A stretch of DNA of 10,867 nucleotides from the NCBI GenBank assembly GCA_030631975.1, contig DAOVKD010000011.1:1-10867 (forward strand), in the 5' to 3' direction. Position numbers and translations under genes: made by a program. Below, piece by piece: positions 3,111 to 9,651 of the stretch; position 1 is the first letter of the stretch, and each line of letters begins with the position of its first letter. The DNA comes from Candidatus Woesearchaeota archaeon. Its GTDB lineage: Archaea; Nanobdellota; Nanobdellia; Woesearchaeales; GW2011-AR4. Under the pieces are notes generated by a model that was given only the letters and a program-made list of their open reading frames with translations, was not told the origin of the DNA and did no database searches.

Positions 3111-5567
3111 ATGGCAGACAAAATAAGATTCTTTCCTTTAGACGTAATGTACAAGGTAATAGATGAAAAGCCGGTAATCCATTTGTTTGGCAGAACTGCT
3201 GACAACAAGCAGGTATGCGTTCTTTATGATAATTTTGAGCCATACTTTTATGTTATACCAAAAAAGGGTTCTGACATAACAGAGCAATTGAAGAACCTAA
3301 AAATTACAAAAAACGGCCAAACATACACCATAACAAAAGTAGAGGCAGTAAAAAAGAAACATTTCGGCAGGGACATAGATGCAATAAAAGTTTTTACAAA
3401 ACTTCCTGGAGATATTCCTGTTATAAGCAGTGAATTAAGGGCTCTAAGCGGCATCGAATCAATAAACGAAAATGATATACTGTTTACAAGAAGATTCCTG
3501 ATAGACAATAACATAGTGCCTTTGACATTATGTGAAGCTGAAGGCAGCTTCGGCCCGCAAAACCTGAAAGTTCCTGCTTTCAAAGCAGAAAAAATAGAGC
3601 CCTTCGGGACTGAAACTTTCCTGAAACCAAGGATTCTTTCTGTTGACATAGAGACGTATGCGCCTCTTTATAAGGAGATTGCGCCGGAAAAAAATCCAAT
3701 AATAATGCTCTCGCTCTATGCAAAAGACTTTCAAAAAGTATTCGTATGGAAGCGCTTTAAGACAAATCTTGACTATGTCGAGTTTGTTGATAGTGAGTCA
3801 GAGTTGATGGATAAATTCAAAGATGTAATTGAAAGCTATAAGCCTGACATTTTGACAGGATATTTCTCTGACGGTTTTGATCTTCCGTACATAAAAGTCC
3901 GTGCCGGCAAATACAAGATTAAGCTTGATTTAGGCCTCGATTTTTCAGAATTAAAAGTCAGCAAAGGAAAAGTTACCACATCACAAATCACAGGAATTAT
4001 ACACCTGGATATTTTTAAATTTATAAGGAAGGTAATATCAGGGACGCTGGAAACAGAAACCTACAATTTAAATGCTGTTGCCTCTGAACTGCTTGGCGAA
4101 AAAAAGTATGATGTTGATCTGAATGAACTTTCAAAAGCATGGGACAATGAAACAGAGCTCAACGAATTCTGTGAATATAACTTAAACGATGCCAGGCTGT
4201 CCTATAATCTCGCTGAAAAATTAATGCCGACGATAATCGAAATGGTCAAGATAACAGGCCTTACCATATATGATGTAAACAGAATGGGCTTCTCCCAGCT
4301 AGTTGAATGGTATCTGCTAAGGCAGGCCCCTAACTTTAATGAAATAGCCCCTAACAGGCCCTCAAATGACGAGATTATGAAAAGAAGACTGCAGACATAC
4401 AAGGGCGCTTTTGTTTTTGAGCCAAAGCCAGGTTTGTATGATAACATAGTTGTGTTTGACTACCGCAGCCTATACCCAACAATAATAGGCTCTCATAACA
4501 TAGGCCTTGGAACAATTAATTGCGGTTGCTGCGAAGAAGAAGCAAAATTAGCCCCCATGGAAGATAATAAAAAAATCTGGTTTTGCAGCAAAAAGAAGGG
4601 TTTTATACCCACCTTAATAGAGGATTTGATAACCAGAAGAACAAGGATTAAGGAAATAATAAAAGACCAGACAGACGAGAAGTTTGCAATACTCGATGCA
4701 AGACAAAATATCCTTAAGCTTCTTGCAAATTCTTTTTACGGCTACTTGGGATTTTTTGCTGCCCGCTGGTATTCAATAGAATGCGCGCAGGCAACGACAG
4801 CCTTCGGAAGATATTACATAAAAGATGTCATCGAAAAAGCAGAAAAATCCGGATTTAAAGTGCTTTACTCAGACACGGATTCGATCTTTATGGCCCTAGG
4901 TGAAAAAACAAAACAGGATGCTGAAAAATTCTCGGAAAAGGTAAATCAGGAGCTTCCTGGACTGATGGAGCTTGAATTTGAAGGTTTTTACCGGGCAGGT
5001 ATTTTTGTATCAGCAAAAATGGGCGCTTACGGCGCAAAGAAAAAATACGCCCTTATTGATGAAAACGGGATGTTAAAGATCAAAGGCTTTGAGAGTGTAA
5101 GGAGAAACTGGTCAATGATTGCAAAAGAAGTGCAGGAAAAAGTTTTGGCTATCATATTAAAAGAGCGCGATAATGAAAAAGCTGTAGAGTACGCCAAAAA
5201 AGTTGTTGATGACCTGAAAAATAAAAAAATACCCCTTGAAAAAGTAATAATCCATACACAACTGCAAAAAGAAATTTCCGAGTATGATGCCCGCGGCCCT
5301 CATGTTGCTGTCGCGCAAAGACTGAAAAACCAGGGAGTAAATGTTGGTCCTGGATCCATGATAAGGTTTGTTGTTTTGCAGGGAAGCGATATAATAAGAA
5401 ATCGCTCCAGGCTGCCTGAGGAAGTCAAAGGAAATAACTATGATGCAGACTATTACATAAACAACCAGGTTATTCCTGCTGTTGAAAGAATTTTCAATGT
5501 TCTGGGCTACACAAAAGAAGACTTGCTGGAAATAAAAGAGCAGACTAAATTAGGAGGGTATTTCTGA
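3111..5567 (+). CDS. polB: Archaeal family B DNA polymerase
   Basis: An 818-aa replicative or repair DNA polymerase with 3'-5' exonuclease, of normal single-chain length. The N-terminal domain is at about 1-170. The exonuclease domain has Exo I SVDIETY (D179, E181), Exo II GYFSDGFDLPY (D257) and Exo III YNLND (Y356, D360). The polymerase domain has motif A FDYRSLYPTII (D450), motif B KLLANSFYG (K536 to G544), motif C YSDTDS (D588, D590) and the DNA-contact KKKYALID. The chain ends in QTKLGGYF (811-818), a PCNA-interacting box, so it should work tethered to the sliding clamp. In Exo II the usual Asn of the YNGDxFD pattern is Phe-Ser here, although all catalytic acids remain. Cysteines at 471, 473, 474 and 492 lie between motif A and the fingers, where euryarchaeal enzymes carry a cysteine pair. 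The gene stands alone behind its own promoter, divergent from the zinc-ribbon/NYN operon. Confidence 0.97.
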   Translation: MADKIRFFPLDVMYKVIDEKPVIHLFGRTADNKQVCVLYDNFEPYFYVIPKKGSDITEQLKNLKITKNGQTYTITKVEAVKKKHFGRDIDAIKVFTKLPGDIPVISSELRALSGIESINENDILFTRRFLIDNNIVPLTLCEAEGSFGPQNLKVPAFKAEKIEPFGTETFLKPRILSVDIETYAPLYKEIAPEKNPIIMLSLYAKDFQKVFVWKRFKTNLDYVEFVDSESELMDKFKDVIESYKPDILTGYFSDGFDLPYIKVRAGKYKIKLDLGLDFSELKVSKGKVTTSQITGIIHLDIFKFIRKVISGTLETETYNLNAVASELLGEKKYDVDLNELSKAWDNETELNEFCEYNLNDARLSYNLAEKLMPTIIEMVKITGLTIYDVNRMGFSQLVEWYLLRQAPNFNEIAPNRPSNDEIMKRRLQTYKGAFVFEPKPGLYDNIVVFDYRSLYPTIIGSHNIGLGTINCGCCEEEAKLAPMEDNKKIWFCSKKKGFIPTLIEDLITRRTRIKEIIKDQTDEKFAILDARQNILKLLANSFYGYLGFFAARWYSIECAQATTAFGRYYIKDVIEKAEKSGFKVLYSDTDSIFMALGEKTKQDAEKFSEKVNQELPGLMELEFEGFYRAGIFVSAKMGAYGAKKKYALIDENGMLKIKGFESVRRNWSMIAKEVQEKVLAIILKERDNEKAVEYAKKVVDDLKNKKIPLEKVIIHTQLQKEISEYDARGPHVAVAQRLKNQGVNVGPGSMIRFVVLQGSDIIRNRSRLPEEVKGNNYDADYYINNQVIPAVERIFNVLGYTKEDLLEIKEQTKLGGYF

Positions 5568-5602
5568 AGATTATGTAAAGTAAACTTGTTAAGTATACAG
5601 TA

Positions 5603-5812
5603 AGGGCTGTGCCTAATTTAGGGGAGGCGGGTGGGAAAAATCATGTTTTATCTGAAATTAAAATGCTGTGTATCTGAACGTAAAACTTTTTAGAAGGTTT
5701 GCGTTAGCAAGCCCAGAAAACCGAGTCAATTAGTCTGTTGGTTTTCGCTGTAAAATCAAGATGCAGCATTTTGACTAAAGTTTGCTCTGGCACAGCCCTA
5801 AACTCCCACTCG
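5603..5812. other. Nested inverted-repeat region: structured RNA or MITE-like element
   Basis: The outer arms AGGGCTGTGCC (5603-5613) and GGCACAGCCCT (5789-5799) are perfect 11-bp complements. Inside them AAAATGCTG (5660-5668) pairs with CAGCATTTT (5764-5772), and ATCT (5672-5675) with AGAT (5759-5762). AACGTAAA (5677-5684) pairs with TTTGCGTT (5698-5705, one G-U), and GAAAACC (5716-5722) with GGTTTTC (5740-5746). CGGGTGGGA (5628-5636) can also pair with TCCCACTCG (5804-5812, one G-U), crossing the outer helix as a pseudoknot. Either strand could be the RNA; on the minus strand a TTATATG lies about 26 nt before the right arm. The arms also resemble insertion-sequence terminal repeats, but no target duplication is visible. 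RNase P, SRP and tmRNA consensus motifs are absent. Confidence 0.45.
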
Positions 5813-5896
5813 TAACTGGCAAAGCATATAACAGCAATTTTGCGATGTTAAATTAACTAAAGATTCTGTGCTTAAAAATAAGAAATAAGTAAAAGA

Positions 5897-5906
5897 TTTA
5901 AAAAGG
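5897..5906 (+). promoter_or_regulatory. Possible upstream ileS promoter
   Basis: TTTAAAAAGG follows a purine-rich stretch. Transcription starting about 25 nt downstream would give a long ileS leader of roughly 270 nt that includes the 16-codon frame and all three hairpins. The consensus match is modest. Confidence 0.3.
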
Positions 5907-5954
5907 CAGATAATTTCTCGTTTACAGGCATAATTATTGATAAAACAATCAACC

Positions 5955-6005
5955 ATGAAAATAATTATAGCGGAAAAACTAAATAATCGTATAAAATTTG
6001 TTTAG
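5955..6005 (+). CDS. Possible 16-codon Ile-rich leader peptide upstream of ileS
   Basis: The frame encodes MKIIIAEKLNNRIKFV and stops with TAG. Four of its 16 residues are Ile, three of them consecutive near the start (ATA ATT ATA). Its stop codon adjoins the segment that leads into the double-hairpin element. The layout resembles a translation-dependent leader for an isoleucine-responsive gene. Arguments against it: no Shine-Dalgarno sequence, a frame short enough to arise by chance in DNA with this base composition, and a better TATA box (5990-5997) lying inside it, which would bypass it. Confidence 0.2.
   Translation: MKIIIAEKLNNRIKFV
5990..5997 (+). promoter_or_regulatory. Probable TATA box of ileS
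   Basis: TATAAAAT has its centre about 26 nt before 6019, where the double-hairpin element begins. If used, the ileS mRNA would start almost exactly with the element and carry a leader of about 178 nt. Confidence 0.45.
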
Positions 6006-6018
6006 TCCTTCCTGATAC

Positions 6019-6073
6019 ACTAAGAAATGCTTTGCATTTCTGGTGTCCCAAAAATCTACGATTTTTGAGGATA
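6019..6073 (+). promoter_or_regulatory. Double-hairpin leader element, copy A (upstream of ileS)
   Basis: After ACTA, hairpin 1 is AGAAATGC-TTT-GCATTTCT (6023-6041, 8 bp). A GG linker follows, then hairpin 2 spans 6044-6073: TGTCC plus CAAAAATC, loop TAC, GATTTTTG, a bulged A at 6068, then GGATA. All pairs are canonical except one G-U. The same architecture recurs at 9440-9496 with different but compensating bases, which argues for selection on the folded RNA. It lies in the leader of ileS, 124 nt from the start codon. The function is unknown; regulation, mRNA stability and processing are all possible, as is a mobile palindromic repeat. Confidence 0.6.
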
Positions 6074-6114
6074 GCAAACGCAGCATTTATACGGAAATTT
6101 AGTGCATTTGCTAT
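6071..6114 (+). promoter_or_regulatory. Third hairpin of the ileS leader, overlapping hairpin 2
   Basis: ATAGCAAACGCA (6071-6082) pairs with TGCATTTGCTAT (6103-6114): 12 positions with one mismatch and a 20-nt loop. Its first three bases are shared with the 3' strand of hairpin 2. TTAGTG (6099-6104) can instead pair with CACTAA (6018-6023). The leader therefore has mutually exclusive folds. This hairpin has no counterpart after copy B. Confidence 0.45.
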
Positions 6115-6196
6115 AAATCAAAAAATAAAACAATTTAAAACAACATCCAACAGAAATAAAAACCCAATAAAAATAAATTAAAAATAACTAATAGAA

Positions 6197-9100
6197 ATGC
6201 AAAAATACGAACCTCTAAAGCAGGAGCCTGAAATTTTGAAGTTTTGGAAAGAGCAAAGAATATACGAAAAAGCCAAAGAAAAGAACAAGGGTAAAAAGAA
6301 GTTCTATTTTCTTGACGGTCCTCCTTATACTTCTGGAAAAGTGCATTTAGGAACAGCGTGGAACAAATCCCTAAAGGATATGGTATTAAGGTACAAAAGA
6401 ATGCAGAGCTTTGATGTATGGGATCGCGCAGGATACGACATGCATGGTATGCCCATAGAGCAAGGCACTGAAAAAAAATTAGGGATAAAAAGCAAGAGCG
6501 AAATACCAAAATTTGGAGTTGCAAAGTTTGTAAAAGCCTGCAGAAACTTTGCAATAAGCAACATGAAGCTAATGAACCATGACTTCATAAGAATAGGAGC
6601 ATGGATGGATTTTGAGAACGCTTATCAGTCTGTTAAAAACGAATACATGGAAGGTGAATGGTGGTTAATAAAAAAAGCGCATGAAAACAAAAGATTGTAT
6701 GAAGGAGAAAAAACAATGCATTGGTGCGGTAAATGTGCAACAGCGCTTGCAAAGCATGAACTGATATATAAAAACATAAAAGAGTCTTCTATTTTCGTAA
6801 AATTTCCCTTAAGGGACAAAAAGAATGAATATTTAATTGTCTGGACCACAACACCATGGACAATTCCATTCAACTTGGGAGTCATGGCCAATCCAGACTT
6901 GGATTATACAAGAGCAAAAGTAGGGGATGAAGTCTGGATTGCCGCCAAAGCATTGTCCGCTCCCTTAATAAGCAGTTTACTTGACAAGCAATTTTCAGTT
7001 CTGGAAGAATTTAAGGGCAGGAAGCTGCTTGGATTAAAATACAGGCATCCATTTGAAAATGATTTCCCAAAATTAAAGGAATTAAGCGAGAAAAATGAAA
7101 AGGTCCACACAGTTGTTCTAAGCCAGGAATATGTGGACACGAGCGCAGGTTCCGGGCTGGTGCATATGGCGCCTGGCTGCGGTCCTGAGGACTATGAAGT
7201 AGGGCATAAAAATAACATTCCGCCATTTAATACCTTAACTGAAAATGGTGTTTTTGATGAAAACAGCGGCATTTTTAGCGGTCTAACTGCAAAAAAAGAC
7301 GATAAAAAAATAACAGAGGAGATAAAGAAAAAAGGCTTTTTGCTGGCAGAAACAGAAGTAGAGCATGACTATGCATACTGCTGGAGGTGCAAAACTCCTG
7401 TTATCTACAGAACCACAACACAATGGTTTTTCAAAATAGAAGATTTGAAAGACCGCATGAGAAAACTAAACAAAAACATAAAATGGATTCCTGATTTTGC
7501 AGGCTCAAGAAATTTTGACAATTGGCTTGAAAATTTAAGAGACAACGGCATTACACGCCAAAGATACTGGGGAACTCCGCTTCCAGTGTGGAAATGCAAA
7601 CAATGCAGGGATTTTGTGGTTGTTGGCTCTATTGGGGAATTGAAAAAGCTTGCCGGCAGTATTCCAGAAGATCTGCACAAGCCGTGGATTGATGAGGTAA
7701 AGATAAAATGCAAATGCGGCGGAGAAAAAGAAAGAATCCCCGATATATTAGATGTATGGATAGATGCTGGCTCTGCATCCTGGAACTGCCTTGATTTTCC
7801 AAGAAGAAAGGATTTGTTTGAAAAGCTTTACCCTGCGGATTTTATTTTAGAGGGCATAGACCAGATTAGAGGCTGGTTCAATCTTTTGTTTGTTGCGTCA
7901 ATGGTCGCAATGAATAATAAATCTTTCAATACGGTTTATATGCACGGATTCATTAATGATGCTAAAGGCAGAAAGATGAGCAAGTCCTTAGGAAATTATA
8001 TTCTTCCGCAAGAAGTTGTCAACAAGTACGGGGCAGACACTTTAAGGTACTACATGATAAGCAGCGCTAACCCAGGCATAGATTTGAACTATAATTTCGA
8101 CGACATGAAAGTCAGGCACAGAAATCTTACAGTTCTGTGGAATTTACACAACTATTTAATTGATCTTGCAGGCAATGCAAACATAAATCCCAGAGACTTT
8201 GAAGCAAAGAAAAGTGATATTTCCATAGAGGAAAAGTACATCCTTTCAAAATTAAATTCCACAATAAGAAAAGCCACAAAGCTGTTTGATGACTATAAGC
8301 TGAATGAAGTGCCTCTGCTGGTTGAAGACCTCTTCTTAAAACTAAGCAGGACTTACATCCAGTTAACCCGTGACAAAGCAGGCGCTGGAAACAAGGTCGT
8401 CTTATACACTGTTTATAAGGTATTTATGGAATCCTTAAAGATGCTTGCCCCAATTGCCCCTTTTATAACAGAAAAAATCTATCAGGACCTTAAGGAACAA
8501 TTTGAGCTTAAAGAGGAAAGCATACATTTTTACTTATGGCCAAAATATGATGAAAAATACATTAGCAAAGAGCTTGAACTGGAGATGGATAGTATAGGCA
8601 ATGTTATACAAACTATCCTCGCTTTAAGGGAAAAAATACAGCTTGGCGTAAGATGGCCGCTGCAGGAAGCAGTCATAGCAACTAAAGATGAAAAAACAAT
8701 AAAGGCTGTTGAGCGCTTAAAAGGAATAATAAAAAAACAAGCTAACATCAAAGAACTTGATGTGCAGCAATCATTGCCTGGAATAAAGCTGGACATCAAG
8801 GCAGATTACTCGCAACTAGGCCCTGACTTTGGAAAAAAAGCTCCCCAGATTATAACAAAGCTTATGGCAGAAAGCCCTGAAGCCATCCTATCTCATTTGG
8901 AAAAAGAAGGAAAATACACAATAAAGCTGGACAAAGAGAAAGTAAACATTGTAAAAGAGCATTTAATTATTACAAGAAATGTTCCAGCACCCTACATAGA
9001 AGGAAGCTTCAAAAATGGCTTTATTTACCTAAACAAAGATGTTAATGAAGAGCTTGAAGCAGAAGGTTATGTTCGCGAGCTAATGCGGCGCGTCCAGGAA

Positions 9101-9325
9101 TTAAGGAAAACAGCAGGGCTGCAGAAAAAAGACAAAATTTCCTTATTCATAAAAACAGATGAAGATCTCAGGGACATGCTCAATAACTTCTACAGCGCAA
9201 TAAAAGGAAAGGTTGGAGCATCCGCATTAAAGATTTCCTACCTTAAGCCAAGCAAAAAACACAAATTTACAAGCAGGGAAAAAGTAAGGGATAAAGTATT
9301 TGAATTGTCTTTGGACAAGGTTTAG
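6197..9325 (+). CDS. ileS: Isoleucyl-tRNA synthetase, archaeal type
   Basis: A 1042-aa class I synthetase that joins isoleucine to tRNA-Ile in the cytosol; length is normal. The signature HIGH box appears as GKVHLGTAWNK (H50 to T53), the HLGT variant usual in archaeal IleRS. The CP1 editing domain starts around EYLIVWTTTPWTIPFN (211-226). Metal-binding Cys pairs are seen at WCGKC (177-180), CWRC (395-398), CKQC (467-470) and CKC (505-507). The catalytic core continues with DVWIDAGS (519-526), the LEGIDQIRGWF block (551-561) and KMSKS (593-597). The anticodon-binding helical domain and C-terminal extension follow. ATG at 6197 is the first start after an in-frame TAA at 6185-6187; no Shine-Dalgarno sequence is present. 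The leader carries the double-hairpin element and a G-depleted last 82 nt. Nothing suggests truncation or frameshift. Confidence 0.97.
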   Translation: MQKYEPLKQEPEILKFWKEQRIYEKAKEKNKGKKKFYFLDGPPYTSGKVHLGTAWNKSLKDMVLRYKRMQSFDVWDRAGYDMHGMPIEQGTEKKLGIKSKSEIPKFGVAKFVKACRNFAISNMKLMNHDFIRIGAWMDFENAYQSVKNEYMEGEWWLIKKAHENKRLYEGEKTMHWCGKCATALAKHELIYKNIKESSIFVKFPLRDKKNEYLIVWTTTPWTIPFNLGVMANPDLDYTRAKVGDEVWIAAKALSAPLISSLLDKQFSVLEEFKGRKLLGLKYRHPFENDFPKLKELSEKNEKVHTVVLSQEYVDTSAGSGLVHMAPGCGPEDYEVGHKNNIPPFNTLTENGVFDENSGIFSGLTAKKDDKKITEEIKKKGFLLAETEVEHDYAYCWRCKTPVIYRTTTQWFFKIEDLKDRMRKLNKNIKWIPDFAGSRNFDNWLENLRDNGITRQRYWGTPLPVWKCKQCRDFVVVGSIGELKKLAGSIPEDLHKPWIDEVKIKCKCGGEKERIPDILDVWIDAGSASWNCLDFPRRKDLFEKLYPADFILEGIDQIRGWFNLLFVASMVAMNNKSFNTVYMHGFINDAKGRKMSKSLGNYILPQEVVNKYGADTLRYYMISSANPGIDLNYNFDDMKVRHRNLTVLWNLHNYLIDLAGNANINPRDFEAKKSDISIEEKYILSKLNSTIRKATKLFDDYKLNEVPLLVEDLFLKLSRTYIQLTRDKAGAGNKVVLYTVYKVFMESLKMLAPIAPFITEKIYQDLKEQFELKEESIHFYLWPKYDEKYISKELELEMDSIGNVIQTILALREKIQLGVRWPLQEAVIATKDEKTIKAVERLKGIIKKQANIKELDVQQSLPGIKLDIKADYSQLGPDFGKKAPQIITKLMAESPEAILSHLEKEGKYTIKLDKEKVNIVKEHLIITRNVPAPYIEGSFKNGFIYLNKDVNEELEAEGYVRELMRRVQELRKTAGLQKKDKISLFIKTDEDLRDMLNNFYSAIKGKVGASALKISYLKPSKKHKFTSREKVRDKVFELSLDKV

Positions 9326-9340
9326 TGCTAGTTCTCAAAT

Positions 9341-9355
9341 AAATGTATAACATTT
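9341..9355 (+). terminator. Small hairpin after ileS
   Basis: AAATGT-ATA-ACATTT is a perfect 6-bp palindrome 15 nt after the ileS stop. It is AT-only apart from one pair and lacks a T run, so a role in 3'-end formation is only possible. Confidence 0.22.
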
Positions 9356-9363
9356 CCGCAACC

Positions 9364-9371
9364 TTTAAATA
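9364..9371 (+). promoter_or_regulatory. Possible TATA box for the ribbon-helix-helix gene
   Basis: TTTAAATA in a slightly GC-richer context (preceded by CGCAACC) is the clearest TATA box after ileS. It would give a leader of about 110 nt that includes double-hairpin copy B. A run of AT-only sequence at 9410-9439 offers alternative boxes that would start the RNA at copy B itself. Confidence 0.4.
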
Positions 9372-9439
9372 CACCATATTATGAAATATATGAAATATAA
9401 TAAAATTTATTAATAAATATAAAATATATTTTATAATAT

Positions 9440-9496
9440 ACTAAGAAATCGCAAAGCGATTTCTGGTATGCAAAAAATCAAAGATTTTTTAGCATA
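9440..9496 (+). promoter_or_regulatory. Double-hairpin leader element, copy B (upstream of the RHH gene)
   Basis: After ACTA, hairpin 1 is AGAAATCGC-AAA-GCGATTTCT (9444-9464, 9 bp). A GG linker follows, then hairpin 2 (9467-9496): TATGC plus AAAAAATC, loop AAA, GATTTTTT, a bulged A at 9491, then GCATA. Compared with copy A, the linker, triloop size, 30-nt length of hairpin 2 and position of the bulged A are the same, while paired bases differ on both sides. It ends 8 nt before the ATG of the 48-aa gene, so it could mask or expose the start. Confidence 0.6.
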
Positions 9497-9504
9497 AATA
9501 ATAA

Positions 9505-9651
9505 ATGAAAAAACCAATAAGCGCAACTATTGATGCTGAACTGATAAAGTGGATAGATAAAGCGCTCCAGGATAAGAAAAAATACAGGAACAAATCCCAT
9601 CTTATTGAAATTGCTTTAGACTTGTTAAAAAACAATAAGGAAAAAATGTAA
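9505..9651 (+). CDS. Small ribbon-helix-helix (CopG/Arc-type) DNA-binding protein
   Basis: A 48-aa protein: MKKPISATIDAELIKWIDKA, a basic turn (KKKYRNKSHLIE), then helix IALDLLKNNKEKM. This is the full ribbon-helix-helix fold: strand KPISATID for the major groove, helix 1 ELIKWIDKALQ, the turn with RNKS at the start of helix 2, and helix 2 SHLIEIALDLL. Such proteins bind DNA as dimers and are often autorepressors or antitoxins. No toxin gene is adjacent: the next gene is a secretion ATPase 178 nt downstream, so an antitoxin role is not supported here. ATG at 9505 comes 8 nt after double-hairpin copy B, without a Shine-Dalgarno sequence. It could regulate its own transcription or that of the downstream ATPase gene; this is inference. 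Confidence 0.78.
   Translation: MKKPISATIDAELIKWIDKALQDKKKYRNKSHLIEIALDLLKNNKEKM

Follow-up and report, generated by a model that had tools for sequence, protein, structure and literature searches.

Dispersed two-hairpin palindromes of Woesearchaeota and related Nanoarchaeota, with in-frame copies in conserved protein genes

Introduction

The Rickettsia palindromic elements (RPE) and the palindromic elements of Wolbachia are dispersed intergenic palindromes that also occur in frame, and free of stop codons, in conserved protein genes; duplication of the target is not established for them (PMC2229807, PMC10969869, PMC3767692). For the guanylate kinase of Rickettsia, an RPE insert was reported to be translated into an active protein (PMC2229807). 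Coding palindromes fused into protein genes have also been reported for Methanocaldococcus jannaschii (PMC2996958). A further group, REP/BIME, is described as short hairpins that carry GTAG or CGTC tags, are often paired or chained, and lie between genes and occasionally within them (PMC3733652). Here we describe a two-hairpin element that occurs twice, as copies A and B, in a contig of 10,867 nucleotides (C59, GenBank DAOVKD010000011.1; hereafter the window) from the archaeal genome of a Candidatus Woesearchaeota, which is 937 kb in size and 64% complete.

Like RPE, this element is palindromic, dispersed and multicopy, and it is found as in-frame, stop-free inserts in conserved genes. Unlike RPE, which are alphaproteobacterial and about 100-150 bp long, it is an archaeal two-hairpin core of 54-60 bp that adds 54 nt in four clean cases; RPE are set apart by host and size as described, and no sequence kinship is claimed. 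With the coding palindromes of M. jannaschii it has in common that archaeal palindromes lie within protein genes, in a different archaeal lineage and in a comparison made by description rather than by sequence. It differs from both in its two-hairpin form, its chaining and its phylum-wide spread. The double-hairpin elements of Allomyces mitochondrial DNA, in which two adjacent hairpins are apparently mobile, belong to another type of genome and differ in sequence, again compared by description alone. A search of a library of open-access papers returned no description of the present element in Woesearchaeota or Nanoarchaeota. By analogy, it appears to work like RPE and the M. jannaschii coding palindromes; we place it outside RPE, REP and regulatory RNA because their defining features failed.

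Results

Copies A and B are very probably members of a family of short palindromic DNA elements that is dispersed in Woesearchaeota and related Nanoarchaeota and has spread as mobile DNA. Two covariance models were used, R1 built from four exact-pattern copies and R2 from 34 copies of several genomes, and the match counts take in both strands of one palindrome. R2 located the element at 13 distinct places in the window's own genome (E≤1e-6), the opposite of the lack of further copies in the genome that the original prediction had set as the outcome speaking against it. An R1 match at E≤0.1 was present in 50 of 59 relatives, and 130 of 371 genomes in a sample of the phylum had an R2 match at E≤1e-6; these 130 belong to the same order as the host and to other orders within the same class. 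The covariance-model search of this genome and its relatives had been proposed with the prediction, and the many copies in many genomes agree with one of its guesses, that of a palindromic repeat dispersed in this lineage. Matches fell on both strands, which are equivalent. A strict exact pattern gave no match in viral contigs; the pattern is narrow, so that this result is little informative.

Hairpins are cheap in AT-rich genomes, and most copies in G016, the whole genome of a relative, lie between genes, as might be expected of chance hairpins or of bidirectional intrinsic terminators. Such an origin is hardly credible for this family, in view of E-values down to 1e-16, a primary sequence common across families, and the 241 genomes of the phylum sample in which no match reached 1e-6. 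In addition, only 10 matches were found in a total of 808 kb of ileS loci, and copies occur within genes.

Four of the copies within conserved genes have orthologs that lack the insert, and in each of the four, kae1, gltX, gatE and a nucleotidyltransferase gene, the insert is in frame, stop-free and exactly 18 codons long. The kae1 gene of genome G020 has exactly 54 nt more than all 11 aligned orthologs at the DNA level, and PDB entry 2ivn shows the same 18-residue gap relative to its protein. Two further Kae1 proteins (93% and 90% identity) carry the insert, which is therefore inherited and no assembly error. Similarly, gltX of G028 has exactly 54 nt more than 10 of 10 aligned orthologs, and the 18 residues of GatE of G016 are missing from 10 of 10 other aligned rows. 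In the nucleotidyltransferase of the window's own genome, the 18-residue insert is present in five and absent from 10 of 15 rows, which include the query and a 99% identical protein; the carriers besides the query are that protein and three proteins at 71-79% identity. Insertion, survival in frame and inheritance are directly observed in these comparisons. The motif was present in 12 of 13 kae1 loci and 11 of 13 gltX loci, and the rows of the protein alignments (12 for kae1, 15 for the nucleotidyltransferase and 11 for gatE) were picked from lists of 120. An AlphaFold model of Kae1 with the insert, made with 12 close sequences, was poor, with a mean predicted local distance difference test score (pLDDT) of 57 and residues 130-243 under 50. 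Separately, GatE protein P0250 (alignment A11) has an unrelated 18-residue insertion almost at the place of the insertion in G016, which perhaps derives from another element family.

The byp elements of mitochondria, which ribosomes bypass, offer an analogy to these gene inserts, which might likewise be removed or skipped, by RNA splicing or ribosome bypassing, instead of being translated. The exact unit length, the strong hairpins at every insertion and the tolerance of core enzymes for the insert would suit such a fate. We consider it very improbable, since in the gene copies examined the frame is open across the insert and the net length is divisible by three, the open frame having also been a search criterion. 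Furthermore, three further proteins have a diverged version of the nucleotidyltransferase insert (KSKAF to KKIVF) that still keeps 18 residues and an open frame, as is expected of translated sequence.

The distribution of copies relative to genes was determined in G016, in which manual merging of 62 matches from the two strands left 33 places. There is a strong intergenic bias in this one whole genome: 22 of the 33 places touch no open reading frame (ORF) of at least 90 aa; among random 58-mers, the share is 7.5% (p about 1.6e-17). Seven of the remaining places lie inside and four overlap such ORFs, some of which are probably spurious; the one in GatE was verified. Outside the G016 set, 12 of 43 copies examined (47 less the weak L022, L025, L027 and L028) are contained in an ORF that is long or known, and 10 of these 12 ORFs have Pfam or PDB support. 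Five belong to the window's own genome (Trm1, Elp3, a cytidylyltransferase-like protein, a THUMP methyltransferase and a phosphoesterase), and those of other genomes are Kae1, L30e, GltX, UppS, IspDF and two unnamed proteins. Most gene-internal copies use one common reading frame and encode a recognisable peptide, such as LENQRFSGHQKSKGFFSA; any single frame of the six is open in 7 to 24 of 35 copies.

The aligned copies share a core of about 54-60 bp with the consensus NNCACT-hairpin-GGTGTSCC-hairpin-GAGSATG. The linkers are mutually complementary: ACACT before hairpin 1 can pair with GGTGT after it, and the middle linker, which can pair with the linker on either side, is able to lengthen one hairpin or the other. 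Among 36 aligned rows, both sides changed in 14 of 20 pairs, with 114 double-change cells, as compared with 35.9 in shuffles and 3-14 when the partner was slid. The alternative pairing of the middle linker covaries as well (99 double-change cells versus 29.0). Base-pair composition was counted in 35 of the 36 rows, the minus-strand row of L010 being omitted: of 521 core-stem cells, 503 are Watson-Crick, 5 are G-U, 4 are A-C and 9 are other pairs. The linker pairs contain G-U in 29 and 32 cells. Because G-U is as rare as A-C in the core stems, and a selected RNA should tolerate G-U better than A-C, the symmetry appears to be kept at the DNA level. It could result from correction of imperfect palindromes during replication or from selection for a DNA hairpin.

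The two-hairpin form of copies A and B and their paired stem changes, as first noted for the window, were confirmed by a check of the sequence and by folding (Table 1); in each copy, hairpin 2 spans 30 nt and includes a triloop and one bulged A. The original prediction had read these paired changes as the hallmark of an RNA fold. The conserved architecture with its compensatory changes is real, and the step from it to RNA fails on the lack of a G-U excess over A-C, on the matches to both strands, on the in-frame copies within genes and on the orthologous leaders that lack the element. A conserved cis-acting RNA, such as a riboswitch-like leader or a processing or stability signal, would account for the strong covariation and the stable folds, for a middle linker that pairs either way, like a two-state switch, and for the position of both window copies upstream of genes. 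For several other copies, e.g. L032, L034, L043 and L046, the end falls on a start codon or directly before one. The intergenic copies at these four loci end in GAGCATG or a similar sequence, the ATG of which is, or possibly is, where the following gene starts, and the hairpin may thus overlap the start of translation.

The orthologous sites speak against selection as an RNA. R1 gave no match within the upstream 330 nt of any of 23 ileS orthologs. Of the orthologs of the window's ileS, at up to 79% identity, nearly all carry the label Woesearchaeota or Nanoarchaeota. The promoter-like stretch TTTAAAAAGG is common to L068 and the window, at distances of 20 and 290 nt, respectively, from the ileS start. 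For the gene that follows copy B, orthologs were readable in two of 80 loci, L068 (93% identity over 41 aa) and L069 (81% over 47 aa), and the leader in L068 is an empty site for copy B. We dropped the proposal that the two copies act in leaders as a cis-regulatory RNA or a processing signal, because orthologous leaders lack the element, copies lie in frame within genes, and matches are symmetric between strands. In addition, no Rfam family matched the window at its gathering score. Together with the base-pair counts given above, these results make the conserved-RNA explanation highly unlikely. Both A and B are insertions between genes, close to gene starts, and an effect on ileS or on the ribbon-helix-helix gene is possible.

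The cores can chain or nest within longer multi-hairpin units. The unit of about 150 bp around copy A recurs in a three-way alignment with G011 (84% identity, query 7-156) and G009 (87%, query 4-138). In G153, most of 13 fetched copies lie within a common unit of about 180 bp made of chained hairpins, and some copies have other modules on one side of it. L042 and L045 contain chains of four hairpins. As a separate observation, loci L303-L314 of G153 contain near-identical copies of one long unit, pointing to a recent burst.

Table 1. Coordinates of copies A and B, their parts and the adjacent genes in the window
Feature	Position	Strand	Remarks
Copy A, two-hairpin core	6016..6073	+ as modelled (other strand also matches)	R2 84.5 bits, genome E 2.6e-16; fold z -5.5 (1 of 200 dinucleotide shuffles as good)
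Copy A, parts	ACTA 6019-6022; hairpin 1 6023-6041; GG 6042-6043; hairpin 2 6044-6073
Copy A, hairpin 1	6023..6041	+	AGAAATGC TTT GCATTTCT
Copy A, hairpin 2	6044..6073	+	bulged A = 6068
Longer multi-hairpin unit centred on copy A	about 5966..6114	+	ends approximate
Flanking hairpins of the copy A unit			GGAAAAACTAAA/TTTAGTCCTTCC and GCAAACGCA/TGCATTTGC, outer TATAGC/GCTAT; read from the sequence
Copy B, two-hairpin core	9437..9496	+	R2 66.7 bits, genome E 3.6e-12; fold z -5.8 (0 of 200); orthologous L068 site empty
Copy B, parts	ACTA 9440-9443; hairpin 1 9444-9464; GG 9465-9466; hairpin 2 9467-9496
Copy B, hairpin 1	9444..9464	+	AGAAATCGC AAA GCGATTTCT
Copy B, hairpin 2	9467..9496	+	bulged A = 9491
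ileS, downstream of copy A	6197..9325	+	ORF of 1042 aa
Ribbon-helix-helix gene, downstream of copy B	9505..9651	+	48 aa; putative domain name, from the original prediction

Other features near the two copies were noted. A stretch of about 200 nt between polB and ileS (5603-5800, +) folds strongly (-66.5 kcal/mol), and its ends pair (GGGCTGTGCC / GGCACAGCCC); no Rfam family came near its cut-off there, and a non-coding RNA and a larger palindromic unit are both possible readings. A permissive Rfam scan of 5540-6200 gave four matches far under their cut-offs, which we take as chance. Upstream of the ribbon-helix-helix gene, the stretch AAAATATATTTTATAATAT is conserved in three loci (window about 9410-9440, L068 about 8718-8736, L069 about 4019-4039) and is possibly an operator for that gene's own product. 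Near gene starts in two genomes, in L070 and in L069 (about 3905-3955), GGGATATCGTAGATATCCC precedes a hairpin around GCTGTTTTACGGGC; this different palindromic unit is probably another family of dispersed palindromes.

Discussion

In another reading, the element is REP/BIME-like and would be moved by a Y1 tyrosine transposase, of the IS200 type or REP-associated, that recognises the single-stranded hairpins. Like REP/BIME, the element consists of short hairpins that are often paired or chained and are intergenic, with some within genes. The chemistry of IS200/IS605-type elements fits hairpins and the absence of a clear target duplication; in kae1 at most 1 nt is ambiguous, and the flanks in gltX are too diverged to exclude a few nt. 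Y1 transposase genes are present in 27 of the 59 genomes, and these have more matches (median 15) than the other 32 (median 7.5), a weak association (Mann-Whitney p 0.014, Spearman 0.40) that takes no account of kinship or completeness. However, REP transposases are typically flanked by REPs, and no copy (R2, E≤0.01) was found in 12 fetched loci of Y1 genes, which were not subtyped. Moreover, at least 15 matches were present in 10 of the 32 genomes in which no Y1 gene was detected, many of them incomplete, and the 36 aligned copies, inspected by eye, have no common GTAG or CGTC tag at either end. Movement by a Y1 transposase is unlikely in our judgement.

The spread of copies as mobile DNA would probably proceed via a single-stranded hairpin form, with some enzyme, or template switching at replication, as the agent. 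Selection would then remove most insertions into genes, and those that survive would be open-frame units of 54 nt in tolerant places. Once translated, these would give rise to an extra segment of 18 residues. As a tentative extension, which we regard as rather doubtful, the element might spread without a dedicated transposase, its folded single strand being copied, e.g. by template switching at forks, and might steadily supply ready-made 18-residue insertions to enzymes of translation and tRNA modification in DPANN archaea.

Several points weigh against dispersal as mobile DNA. No transposase or other mover was found, Y1_Tnp being the sole candidate searched for, and the target sites show no obvious common motif, with two junctions resolved at the DNA level. 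The E-values of the covariance models are rough, owing to a short calibration. The 43 copies, made up of matches in the window's own genome and mostly the best copy per genome, were not drawn at random. Overlap with genes was detected through open frames, and insertions that break the frame would escape. Within genes, the copy in Trm1 is part of a longer hairpin chain in a linker of variable length among orthologs, where the insert is not cleanly bounded, and UppS (L051) shows no clean gap relative to its PDB relatives; the comparison with insert-free orthologs leaves out Elp3, the THUMP methyltransferase, the phosphoesterase, L30e and IspDF. Finally, the exact site of copy B is occupied in L069 by another hairpin chain, after TTTATAATAT, and the palindromic unit of L070 lies just upstream of ileS. 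Other palindromes near gene starts in these two loci could reflect a site preference or a role near starts.

Coding palindromes had so far been described in Rickettsia and Wolbachia and reported in one methanogen, and the present family is spread phylum-wide in small-genome, mostly uncultured archaea. For annotators, the element is a warning that paired changes between two palindromic copies are insufficient for calling a regulatory RNA. The many independent insertions with insert-free orthologs make it measurable which proteins, and which positions in them, accept 18 additional residues. The rate at which translated palindromes decay and the nature of their mover become measurable as well.

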